Shown: positions 14,364-16,981 of the stretch, piece after piece | How the letters are laid out: each line of letters starts with the position of its first letter | How positions within the stretch are numbered: the stretch's first letter is position 1 | Assembly (NCBI GenBank): GCA_948442255.1 | Contig: CAOJRT010000007.1 | Span: 1 to 51,884 of the forward strand | DNA from: an uncultured Caryophanales bacterium | GTDB taxonomy: Bacteria > Bacillota_I > Bacilli_A > RF39 > UBA660 | Reading direction: 5' to 3' | DNA: 51,884 nt | Made by a program: the position numbers and the translations under genes | The notes under the pieces: generated by a model | The model's database searches: none | The model's input: the letters and a program-made list of their open reading frames with translations, nothing else | Told to the model about the DNA's origin: nothing

Positions 14364-14392
14364 ATTATAAAAAGATTTACTACTTTATGCAA
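14364..14392 (-). promoter_or_regulatory. Sigma-A promoter of the CmpB-like gene
   Basis: TTGCAT at 14387-14392, 17-nt spacer, TATAAT at 14364-14369; it overlaps the MYG1 stop codon. Confidence 0.75.
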
Positions 14393-15311
14393 CCGAATTA
14401 GTTTCTATCTCTAATGTTTTCTTGGAAAGAGCAATTGCATCTTCTAAGGTATCTGTACAAGCAAGGAAGCCTGTTGCGTGTATAAAACGAATGGTAGGAA
14501 TTTGCGTTACTTTTTTTAGTTCCTCTTCTTTTAGTCCCCACCACTCTTGTGGAAAATTAATAACAAGTGTTTTCTCTTCTTTACTGGTAGCCATTGGTTT
14601 AATATTGTATCCACCTCTATTAGAAGGAGTAATGACAATTTTTATATTTCTTGCTTTTGGATTTTTGGAATCACAAATAGCATCTTTAAATGGCATACTC
14701 TCTTGTAATACTAAGATATTGCCTACTGTCTTTTCTATTTCTTGTTCTATTATCTTCTTGGCTTTCACTCTTGCTTTTTCTTTTTTTATTAGTTGATCAA
14801 AAATTTGTTCTGCTATATCACAAGCAATTAGGAAAAACTCATCACTATCTTTTTTTTCATCCCAACATGTATTAAATAAGTCAATCACATAGTCTAAATC
14901 CATTAAACTATAATCGGCTGTTATAGTGGGAAAATTTCCGTTGTCAATTCCATCAATCTGCATTACCAATTTTTCCTCAATAATAGTAAATAATTCCTCT
15001 ATGTTCTCATTTTCTACTTTTTTTAAGTAATCACGACCAAAATCGTTCCATAGTAAGCCAAAAGAACAATATTTTATTTTTTCGTTACGCATTTTTGCTT
15101 CTTTGCCATGATGGTCATAAATACCAAGACCAATATCATAAACGATAGCATTTGGATTTCTGTTTTCTACACTTGCTACACGAGCAATTAAAGGCTTTTT
15201 TAGTAATTTCGATAAAAGAACAGTAGAAAAAACATCATCTGGATGAAATCTTCCAGTATGTGTAATTAAGTTTGCCTTCCTTGGATCTTTCGTTATTTTT
15301 CTTTTATTCAT
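14385..15311 (-). CDS. MYG1/UPF0160 family phosphohydrolase-exonuclease
   Basis: 308 residues. Motifs of the DHH-like MYG1 family are present in order: THTGRFHPDDVFSTVLL near the N-terminus (metal-binding H and DD), YDIGLGIYDHHGKEA (DHH), QIDGIDNGNFP, and the C-terminal IRFIHATGFLACTDT and FPQEWWGL. Eukaryotic MYG1 is an RNA exonuclease; bacterial members are poorly studied, so nuclease activity is inferred. AAGGAGT precedes the ATG. Its start overlaps the end of the P-type-ATPase-like gene by 8 nt, indicating translational coupling. Confidence 0.88.
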   Translation of the reverse strand: MNKRKITKDPRKANLITHTGRFHPDDVFSTVLLSKLLKKPLIARVASVENRNPNAIVYDIGLGIYDHHGKEAKMRNEKIKYCSFGLLWNDFGRDYLKKVENENIEELFTIIEEKLVMQIDGIDNGNFPTITADYSLMDLDYVIDLFNTCWDEKKDSDEFFLIACDIAEQIFDQLIKKEKARVKAKKIIEQEIEKTVGNILVLQESMPFKDAICDSKNPKARNIKIVITPSNRGGYNIKPMATSKEEKTLVINFPQEWWGLKEEELKKVTQIPTIRFIHATGFLACTDTLEDAIALSKKTLEIETNSVA

Positions 15312-16350
15312 TATTTCTTACTCCTTTTATTTTGGTGAATCTAGCTAATTTTATTAATTCTAATGGTGTGACAAAAAAGATACTTGTAATTAGACAAGCT
15401 ATATAATTTTGTACTCCTACAATAGGCTTTCTAAAAAAGAAAATTCCAATACTAGCCAGAGCAATTCCTATTATATAAATAAGCATAGCTTTTGTATTTC
15501 TACATTCTACTATATTCTTAGCTATGGCGCTATCGCTGTATTCATAAAGAGTGACAAAGAGATTACTAAATACAAATACTAGCAAGTAAATAGTAAAAGA
15601 AATTTCTACATTTTCTATATTTACTATAAAAAACATATAAGGCAAGGTAAGAGAAAATAAAACAAGTGCTACTTGCATAAAAAGGAAAAATTGTTCCTGT
15701 AACTCTTGCAAATGATCTAAGTTATATGGTCTTCTTTTCATGATATCTTTTTCACAAGGGATTTTTTTATAGACATATTCAGTTACAAATAAAGTTGTAA
15801 TTTTACAAAGTAAAGAAATTTCTATTGTGATTTTAAAAGGAAAACCTAATAACAAAAATAAAAAATAAGATATTACAATGGGTAGATACGTTGTATATAT
15901 ATAATTCTTCGCTTTCAAAAAGTTGTCGTACTCACATCTGCTCTTTTTTATTTTTTGATATATATTTTTTTCATAAGTGCTTTTTTCTTTGCTTTTGATT
16001 ACTTTAATATGTGCTTTTTTAAATAAGGAGAGTTCTTTTTTATCTATTTCTTCTTTACAATAAATTTTGTCTATCCCACTATATTCATCTTTTAAGGAAA
16101 AAGGAAGAGAAGTTGGTAACAAAAAAATAAATAAGGAAATGCTATTTATCTTATTTCCTCTTTCTAAAAAGGAAGCAATTAGAAAGTAAATAGTTGACAG
16201 AATTATACATAGAAGAAGACATCTTTTTTTTCTATTTTGTTCTTTTTTAAAAAGAGAAAGTTGTTTATTTGGTATCGTTTTTTTCCTTATTATCCCTTTT
16301 AAAACTAAGAAAAAGATTATTAAAAAGATATTTTTACCTATTGTATACAC
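15304..16350 (-). CDS. Membrane protein resembling a P-type cation ATPase without catalytic domains
   Basis: 348 residues, GTG start behind GAGGTGAG. Segments align in order with a P2-type ATPase: LLPTSLPF (76-83) like the helix-4 PEGLP; GIDKIYCKEEID (92-103) where GSxxVICSDKTGT should be, with the phosphorylated Asp motif lost; SLFKKAHIKVI (108-118) like LKKAGIKVxMITGD but lacking TGD; then FLLLGFPFKITIEISLL and EYVYKKIPCEKDIMKRRP (about 157-199) like the LGxPxPLT...EPPExDIMKRPPR block, followed by four more helices. The actuator and nucleotide-binding domains, roughly 500 residues, are missing. It is therefore unlikely to pump ATP-dependently. The frame is intact and coupled to MYG1, suggesting it is kept. 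Homology is my reading of motif order, not a search result. Confidence 0.6.
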   Translation of the reverse strand: MYTIGKNIFLIIFFLVLKGIIRKKTIPNKQLSLFKKEQNRKKRCLLLCIILSTIYFLIASFLERGNKINSISLFIFLLPTSLPFSLKDEYSGIDKIYCKEEIDKKELSLFKKAHIKVIKSKEKSTYEKNIYQKIKKSRCEYDNFLKAKNYIYTTYLPIVISYFLFLLLGFPFKITIEISLLCKITTLFVTEYVYKKIPCEKDIMKRRPYNLDHLQELQEQFFLFMQVALVLFSLTLPYMFFIVNIENVEISFTIYLLVFVFSNLFVTLYEYSDSAIAKNIVECRNTKAMLIYIIGIALASIGIFFFRKPIVGVQNYIACLITSIFFVTPLELIKLARFTKIKGVRNNE

Positions 16351-16372: not shown

Positions 16373-16392
16373 AAAAAGTGCTATAGGGCACT
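16373..16392 (-). terminator. Short terminator at the end of the 158-residue gene
   Basis: AGTGC-CCTATA-GCACT followed by TTTTTTG; it includes the TAG stop and lies 23 nt before the next start, so it may act as an attenuator. Confidence 0.6.
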
Positions 16393-16857
16393 CAATTGCT
16401 TTGCTTTTTGCTTCTTTTCTTGTTTTTTTAATGTCGTTGTAAAAATTTTTTCTTCAGACGAATCAGTCTGGTTGTATTTGGTTATCGTAACAACAGATGT
16501 AACTTTATCTATTATAGTTTCACTGGTTCGAATAAGCTTTGGTTCATCTTCTACACAAAGTCTAGTGATATCCAAATAGATTCGTAGTTCTTCTTTGTTT
16601 TCCATCACATAGGCTTCTAAACAACGATTTTCTACTCTTTCGCCATCAGTTAAGGTTAGGGCACCCGTAATAGAAACCATATCTTTTTCTTTTACAGCCG
16701 TTAATGTTTTTATTTCTAGTTCTGTTATAAAGGAATCTTTTAATGGGTAAGCAGTATCACGAATCTCTTTGCAATAATTTAAAACTTTAATAATATGATC
16801 TTGGTTCTTTTTTTGTATTCCAACAAAGTTATAAATTGGTTCGTTGTGCTTTTCCAT
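16381..16857 (-). CDS. Hypothetical soluble protein (158 aa)
   Basis: Not recognised. The protein has no signal or membrane segment and is predicted mixed alpha/beta with a strongly basic C-terminal tail (LKKQEKKQKAKQLSAL). A repeated T/V/I pattern (TSVVTITKYNQT) suggests beta strands. The ATG chosen is 9 nt after AAGGAG; one two codons earlier is too close to it. A consensus sigma-A promoter lies upstream; a terminator hairpin follows, leaking perhaps into the two downstream genes. Confidence 0.6.
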   Translation of the reverse strand: MEKHNEPIYNFVGIQKKNQDHIIKVLNYCKEIRDTAYPLKDSFITELEIKTLTAVKEKDMVSITGALTLTDGERVENRCLEAYVMENKEELRIYLDITRLCVEDEPKLIRTSETIIDKVTSVVTITKYNQTDSSEEKIFTTTLKKQEKKQKAKQLSAL

Positions 16858-16981
16858 ATTCATTTACTCCTTTTTTTGTATTCCTTGTTTTTCTTCCTTC
16901 TCTTCTTTCTCCGACTTATAAAAGCAAAAAATGGTTTCTTTTTTATGATATATTTTCTCTTTTAGTTTCCATTAATAAGCT

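Follow-up and report, generated by a model that had tools for sequence, protein, structure and literature searches.

A catalytically dead membrane protein, almost certainly reduced from a P2-type cation ATPase, encoded beside a MYG1-family nuclease

What remains of a P-type ATPase once the part that handles ATP is gone, and what can that remainder do? P-type ATPases are usually viewed as all-or-none machines, and a natural deletion of the ATP-handling part, with the membrane bundle kept by selection, is a ready-made experiment on the bundle's own capacity. The question is raised by an open reading frame in a 51,884-nucleotide contig (the window, meaning the whole stretch of DNA analysed), which a first-pass annotation had read as a P-type ATPase relic coupled to a MYG1 nuclease gene. 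The frame starts with GTG, has no internal stop and encodes 348 residues on the minus strand. We refer to its product as the pseudo-pump. The features at the locus are:

15304..16350, minus strand: pseudo-pump, a reduced P2-type ATPase homologue (348-aa ORF, orthologues, BLASTP, family profile)
14385..15311, minus strand: MYG1-family (DHH) nuclease gene (PF03690, E 2.3e-52; overlap read from the sequence)
16376..16393, minus strand: terminator-like hairpin at the end of the upstream gene, immediately upstream of the pseudo-pump (consensus scan; by itself no evidence of function)
16381..16863, minus strand: gene for an upstream 160-aa protein, a syntenic neighbour in most congeners (ORF)

Descent from P2-type cation ATPases

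The window protein alone matched no significant family in Pfam, and its best NCBIfam match (TIGR01106, E 8e-4, residues 132–247) fell below the cut-off. BLASTP against an intact ATPase (L113) gave E 2e-12 over residues 128–298, and a genome search with the window protein alone recovered short orthologues in congeners and, through residues 128–345, intact ATPases of 830–844 aa with E-values down to 1.4e-12. A contig search with the single protein gave no match, while the same search with the family alignment did. It is the relatives that make the descent recognisable, because the orthologues and the family profile settle what the window copy alone leaves hard to see. Orthologues of 348–418 aa were found in 13 of 15 genomes of Candidatus Coprovivens, whose members are uncultured gut bacteria, the two others being 64–65% complete. 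PMC8035907, which named the genus, assigns it to order RF39, family CAG-1000; we infer that the window belongs to it through the orthologue L041, which matches congener G193. Ten of the 13 orthologues match Cation_ATPase_C (PF00689, best E 3.6e-15), and in the genome search most of them exceeded the gathering cut-off. The 13-member profile found the intact 820–845 aa ATPases at E-values down to 4.5e-26 and, in the PDB, H,K-ATPase at 1.9e-10 and LMCA1 at 5e-6, as well as Na,K-ATPase and the Ca-ATPases SPCA and SERCA. No better match to an unrelated membrane family was found.

The landmarks on which the first-pass annotation relied do lie in pump order: PTSL at residues 79–82 (M4), IYCKEEID at 96–103 (the DKTGT strand), LFKKAHIKVI at 109–118 and PCEKDIMKRRP at 198–208 (the M6–M7 loop). 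Judged together with the BLASTP and genome searches, their agreement is beyond chance. The proposed P-type ATPase origin is thus borne out by BLASTP, by the family profile and by the fold of an orthologue (below), and we regard the gene as almost certainly derived by reduction from that of a P2-type cation ATPase, its product being catalytically dead.

Trees built from M5–M10 placed the 13 reduced proteins in one clade, grouped with the 820–845 aa ATPases from other genera of the same family. These carry PEEL, PEEI or PEEF as their M4 motif (the 'PEExP' subfamily); their nearest NCBIfam model is TIGR01522, below cut-off. The grouping persisted when the longest branches and the short proteins of genus g25 (described below) were left out (99/98). 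PEExP ATPases are the closest sequence relatives of the pseudo-pump and, unlike it, carry DKTGT and GDGxND. By this placement, its ancestor would have been a PEExP ATPase; no intact member of the subfamily was seen in the pseudo-pump's own genus.

At least five congeners encode an intact ATPase of a different type, PEGLP-type (LMCA1-like) and 862–877 aa long, whose gene shares contig and strand with that of the pseudo-pump and lies 9–14 kb downstream of it (about 872 aa in G193, G199, G200, G203 and G204). Local duplication of this neighbouring 872-aa ATPase was ruled out as the source by the trees: the pseudo-pump is not a local copy of the PEGLP-type ATPase, because the latter sits on a separate branch.

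Parts lost and parts retained

The structural picture comes from an orthologue of 415 aa from Candidatus Coprovivens excrementavium (L041), whose model has a mean pLDDT of 81 and a pTM of 0.82. All of the 50 Foldseek matches listed for it were P2-type ATPases. VIA-align superimposed 398 of its 415 residues on human SPCA1 (Z 29.2, rmsd 3.3), beginning at chain residue 100, so that its first helix corresponds to M2. M3 and M4 come next, then a small beta/alpha stub where a pump has its P domain, then M5 with a long stalk, and finally M6–M10; the best orthologue model is therefore that of a P2-ATPase membrane domain. The window copy's own AlphaFold model was too poor to use (pLDDT 60.6, noise-level fold matches, no P-type ATPase among the 50 listed), and the structural claim is based on L041, which is 31% identical to the window copy. 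The anatomy of the window copy is based on alignment, in which its layout is that of L041 and its stub is shorter:

16282..16344, minus strand: M2 equivalent, N-terminal helix, residues 3–23 (helix in the window model; the L041 model begins at about SPCA1 residue 100, that is M2)
16156..16230, minus strand: M3 equivalent, residues 41–65, directly after M2 with the A domain missing (alignment with intact PEExP ATPases; models)
16090..16149, minus strand: M4 equivalent, residues 68–87, PTSL replacing PEEL/PEGL (alignment; site table)
15967..16071, minus strand: P-domain stub, residues 94–128 (motif scan; beta-alpha-beta in models)
15850..15966, minus strand: M5 stalk and M5, residues 129–167, R138 and N143 invariant (13 of 13 members and intact pumps)
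15763..15834, minus strand: M6 equivalent, residues 173–196, with Lys in place of the ion-site Glu and no Asp (site table)
15727..15759, minus strand: M6–M7 cytosolic loop PCEKDIMKRRP, residues 198–208 (D202, I203, R206 and P208 invariant; highest segment conservation)
15340..15702, minus strand: M7–M10 equivalents, residues 217–337, with invariant K334 and R337 at the end (models; 13-member alignment)

The first-pass annotation had described a pump reduced to its membrane half, with both the phosphorylation and the ATP-binding domains missing. The N domain is indeed gone: the interval between M4 and M5 is 35–75 residues across the family, which leaves no room for it. The P domain, however, is gutted to a stub rather than wholly absent, and in the window copy the strand IYCKEE at the DKTGT position is followed by a helix and the strand LFKKAHIKVI. 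The membrane half is kept, as proposed, but M1 is missing too, which leaves an M2–M10 bundle. The A domain is absent, M2 adjoining M3 in both models and alignment. A motif scan found DKTG(T), TGD/TGES, KGA and GDGxND in none of the 13 members. At the ion sites, both M4 Glu residues are lost in all 13, with the M4 Pro kept in 10; the M6 Asp and the M6 Glu are also lost in every member, the latter being Lys in nine.

The pseudo-pump thus shares with P2-type ATPases (P2A/SPCA, LMCA1) the order and fold of M2–M10, the R...N of the M5 stalk, the DIM.R.P of the M6–M7 loop and the Cation_ATPase_C domain. In contrast to them, it lacks M1, the A and N domains, DKTGT with its Asp, the actuator TGES, GDGxND and the ion-site acids, and has a P domain only as a stub. 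M-domain homology is therefore the one defining feature of a P2 ATPase that it shows; by its catalytic features it does not qualify as a P-type ATPase, and annotating it as a pump would be wrong, though it is clearly pump-derived. The ATPase cycle depends on a site of phosphorylation, a domain that binds the nucleotide and acidic residues at the ion site, and the pseudo-pump, having none of them, would be unable to run it.

Invariant in the 13-member alignment are the R and N of the M5 stalk, DI..R.P in the M6–M7 loop, three asparagines and the C-terminal K and R. Segment conservation was 2.60 for the M5 stalk, 2.71 for the M6–M7 loop and 2.50 for the C-terminus, compared to 1.6–2.4 for the transmembrane helices.

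Selection and the MYG1 neighbourhood

All 13 orthologues carry the same deletion and lie beside MYG1, and their frames are all open, as had been said of the window copy. In the two closest pairs dN/dS was 0.28 and 0.23 for the pseudo-pump and 0.17 and 0.10 for MYG1, ratios that are rough since dS is about 0.8–1.1, near saturation. The pseudo-pump evolved faster than MYG1 in all five pairs compared. Because its ratios are well under 1, the protein is under purifying selection within this one genus, as far as such ratios can be read, and the constraint is weaker than that on MYG1. The label 'relic' is therefore best taken to mean 'reduced but maintained'.

Coupling to MYG1, the other part of the earlier reading, is also upheld: the pseudo-pump stop overlaps the MYG1 ATG (start 15311) by 8 nt, and the two genes abut or overlap in all 13 genomes: relative to the final base of the pseudo-pump, MYG1 starts at –55 to +3 nt when alternative starts are counted. 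Most often a gene for CDP-alcohol phosphatidyltransferase comes first, followed by one for a 160–174 aa protein, the pseudo-pump and MYG1; in the window the order is fmt, a 186-aa protein, the 160-aa gene, pseudo-pump and MYG1. The upstream 160-aa protein matched no Pfam family over the cut-off and nothing in NCBIfam. A TGnTATAAT box lies directly 5' of the pseudo-pump's ribosome-binding site in eight of 10 aligned leaders, while the window leader has a weaker box, TGTTAGAAG, after the terminator-like hairpin. Since the genes abut, a box precedes the pseudo-pump and a terminator-like hairpin lies upstream, the pseudo-pump and MYG1 are probably read as one transcript.

MYG1 also occurs without the pseudo-pump. 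This is the case in other genera and in one congener (G197, L133:1503-1620), where a 164-aa gene is followed by MYG1 after about 116 nt. The G197 leader resembles that of its relatives, the old leader sequence being still present, which indicates that the pseudo-pump was cleanly lost. It is thus dispensable, at least in that species, and MYG1 has no strict need of it.

Two further arrangements around MYG1 were seen. In G193 (L108:11811-15278), MYG1 is followed by a gene for a 1156-aa protein of no assigned family; several congeners encode, after MYG1, proteins that begin in a similar way. The 1156-aa protein is missing after MYG1 in the window. In a different genus (G069, L114:1498-3852), MYG1 divergently adjoins an intact P2-type ATPase gene, possibly by coincidence.

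Possible roles and parallels

Loss of the catalytic parts together with maintenance of the rest suggests that the protein was given a new, non-pumping job. In the best overall explanation, for which the case seems to us evenly balanced, a reduced protein derived from a pump uses its cytosolic face to act as a membrane scaffold or regulator. Loss of M1 and of the A and N domains, shrinkage of the P domain to a stub and replacement of the phosphorylation and ion-site residues would have meant that pumping was abandoned. In an intact pump, the region of the P stub, the M5 stalk, the M6–M7 loop and the C-terminus transmit movement between P domain and membrane. In the pseudo-pump the stub, stalk, loop and basic C-terminus could instead form a docking surface, for a soluble protein or for another pump. 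We favour such a role because what selection has kept is the connection between the cytosolic side and the membrane bundle; that the protein is, specifically, a non-pumping membrane scaffold or regulator is a plausible but tentative assignment. MYG1 is the first candidate partner, because it is made next to the pseudo-pump, although a doubtful one: it is a candidate only, and in G197 MYG1 and the 164-aa gene persist without the pseudo-pump. The faster evolution relative to MYG1 also counts against the explanation, as does the partly ancestral nature of the conserved cytosolic residues, which are shared with pumps and may reflect folding rather than binding.

Another partner would be the resident LMCA1-like ATPase of 862–877 aa, of which the pseudo-pump might be a subunit or dominant regulator. 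An intact P2 ATPase is present in nearly all congeners, and the position of the LMCA1-like gene downstream on the same strand in at least five of them fits such a relationship. The pseudo-pump did not, however, descend from this ATPase, the two genes are not directly adjacent, and one genome with the pseudo-pump (G033, 85% completeness) yielded no intact PF00689 ATPase. No P2 ATPase is known to require such a partner, which we also count against this rather unlikely proposal. Nor would we readily expect the pseudo-pump to be simply an anchor whose sole role is to place the MYG1 nuclease at the membrane. The adjoining or overlapping genes and presumed shared promoter are what this predicts, but gene overlaps are common in compact genomes, MYG1 does without the pseudo-pump in other genera, and its persistence after the clean loss in G197 argues the same way.

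The retained bundle, with its helix-breaking M4 Pro in 10 of 13, could alternatively be a passive channel, leak path or carrier for an ion or lipid, working without ATP. This seems quite improbable: conservation is lower in the transmembrane cores than in the cytosolic loops, and a cation channel in particular is less likely because the intramembrane acids are gone from all 13 and Lys occupies the M6 site in nine. That the gene is a slowly decaying pseudogene is very unlikely. It evolves fast, was lost once, sits on a long terminal branch in the window and has a degraded promoter-like box there, but the purifying selection, the 13 open frames and the family-specific invariant K334 and R337 weaken this reading. 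Finally, an assembly artefact, or a chance resemblance of another membrane family to ATPases, is hardly credible, for although the window protein alone matches neither a Pfam family nor, through its poor model, a listed ATPase fold, independent genomes agree, an orthologue matches the pump fold over its full length and the family profile reaches PDB ATPases, so that the orthologues refute it.

The open-licence literature yielded no description of a maintained membrane half of a P-type ATPase, pseudo or truncated, apart from the debate over human TMEM94/ERMA, the nearest published parallel that we found. This pump-like membrane protein, whose nearest pump structure is SPCA, was found to lack both a phosphorylation cycle and the TGES motif (PMC12134183), and its status is contested by a report of it as a Mg2+ ATPase (PMC13322241). 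TMEM94 still has ten helices and domains resembling A, P and N, whereas the pseudo-pump has lost those domains and offers a bacterial test case for pseudo-transporters such as those at issue in that dispute.

A second, smaller reduction of the PEExP subfamily was seen in two species of genus g25, which encode proteins of 192–201 aa consisting of M5–M10 only (PF00689, E 3.1e-11 and 2.2e-10):

L104:3769-4371, plus strand: M5–M10-only remnant (PF00689)
L105:3220-3795, minus strand: M5–M10-only remnant (PF00689)

They share the subfamily origin of the pseudo-pump, grouping with PEExP ATPases in the trees, but lack M2–M4, the P stub and the MYG1 neighbour, and adjoin instead a membrane protein of about 140 aa and a phosphotransferase-like gene. 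Their branch is long, which allows either one shared reduction or two independent ones. If a pump membrane domain did become a dedicated cytosol-facing receptor or scaffold for a MYG1-family nuclease, with a second reduction of the subfamily in another genus, P-type ATPases would yield pseudo-pumps as kinases yield pseudokinases; we think this full scenario unlikely.

The pseudo-pump was found nowhere else in 386 genomes of the family and 385 of the order (partly overlapping samples, four candidates per genome being scored), and no intermediate form lay beside MYG1 in other genera. One further candidate (G000:C50, L101, PF00689 at 5.6e-4) was rejected as a second case since it reads as a signal-peptidase-like membrane protein. 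Stand-alone Cation_ATPase_C frames in a survey of 120 Bacilli genomes came mostly from TGA-recoded genomes or were short frames close to contig starts, with a few other short frames (for example 560 aa in G548 and 369 aa in G572). The pseudo-pump shows that Cation_ATPase_C matches on short reading frames are not always fragments.
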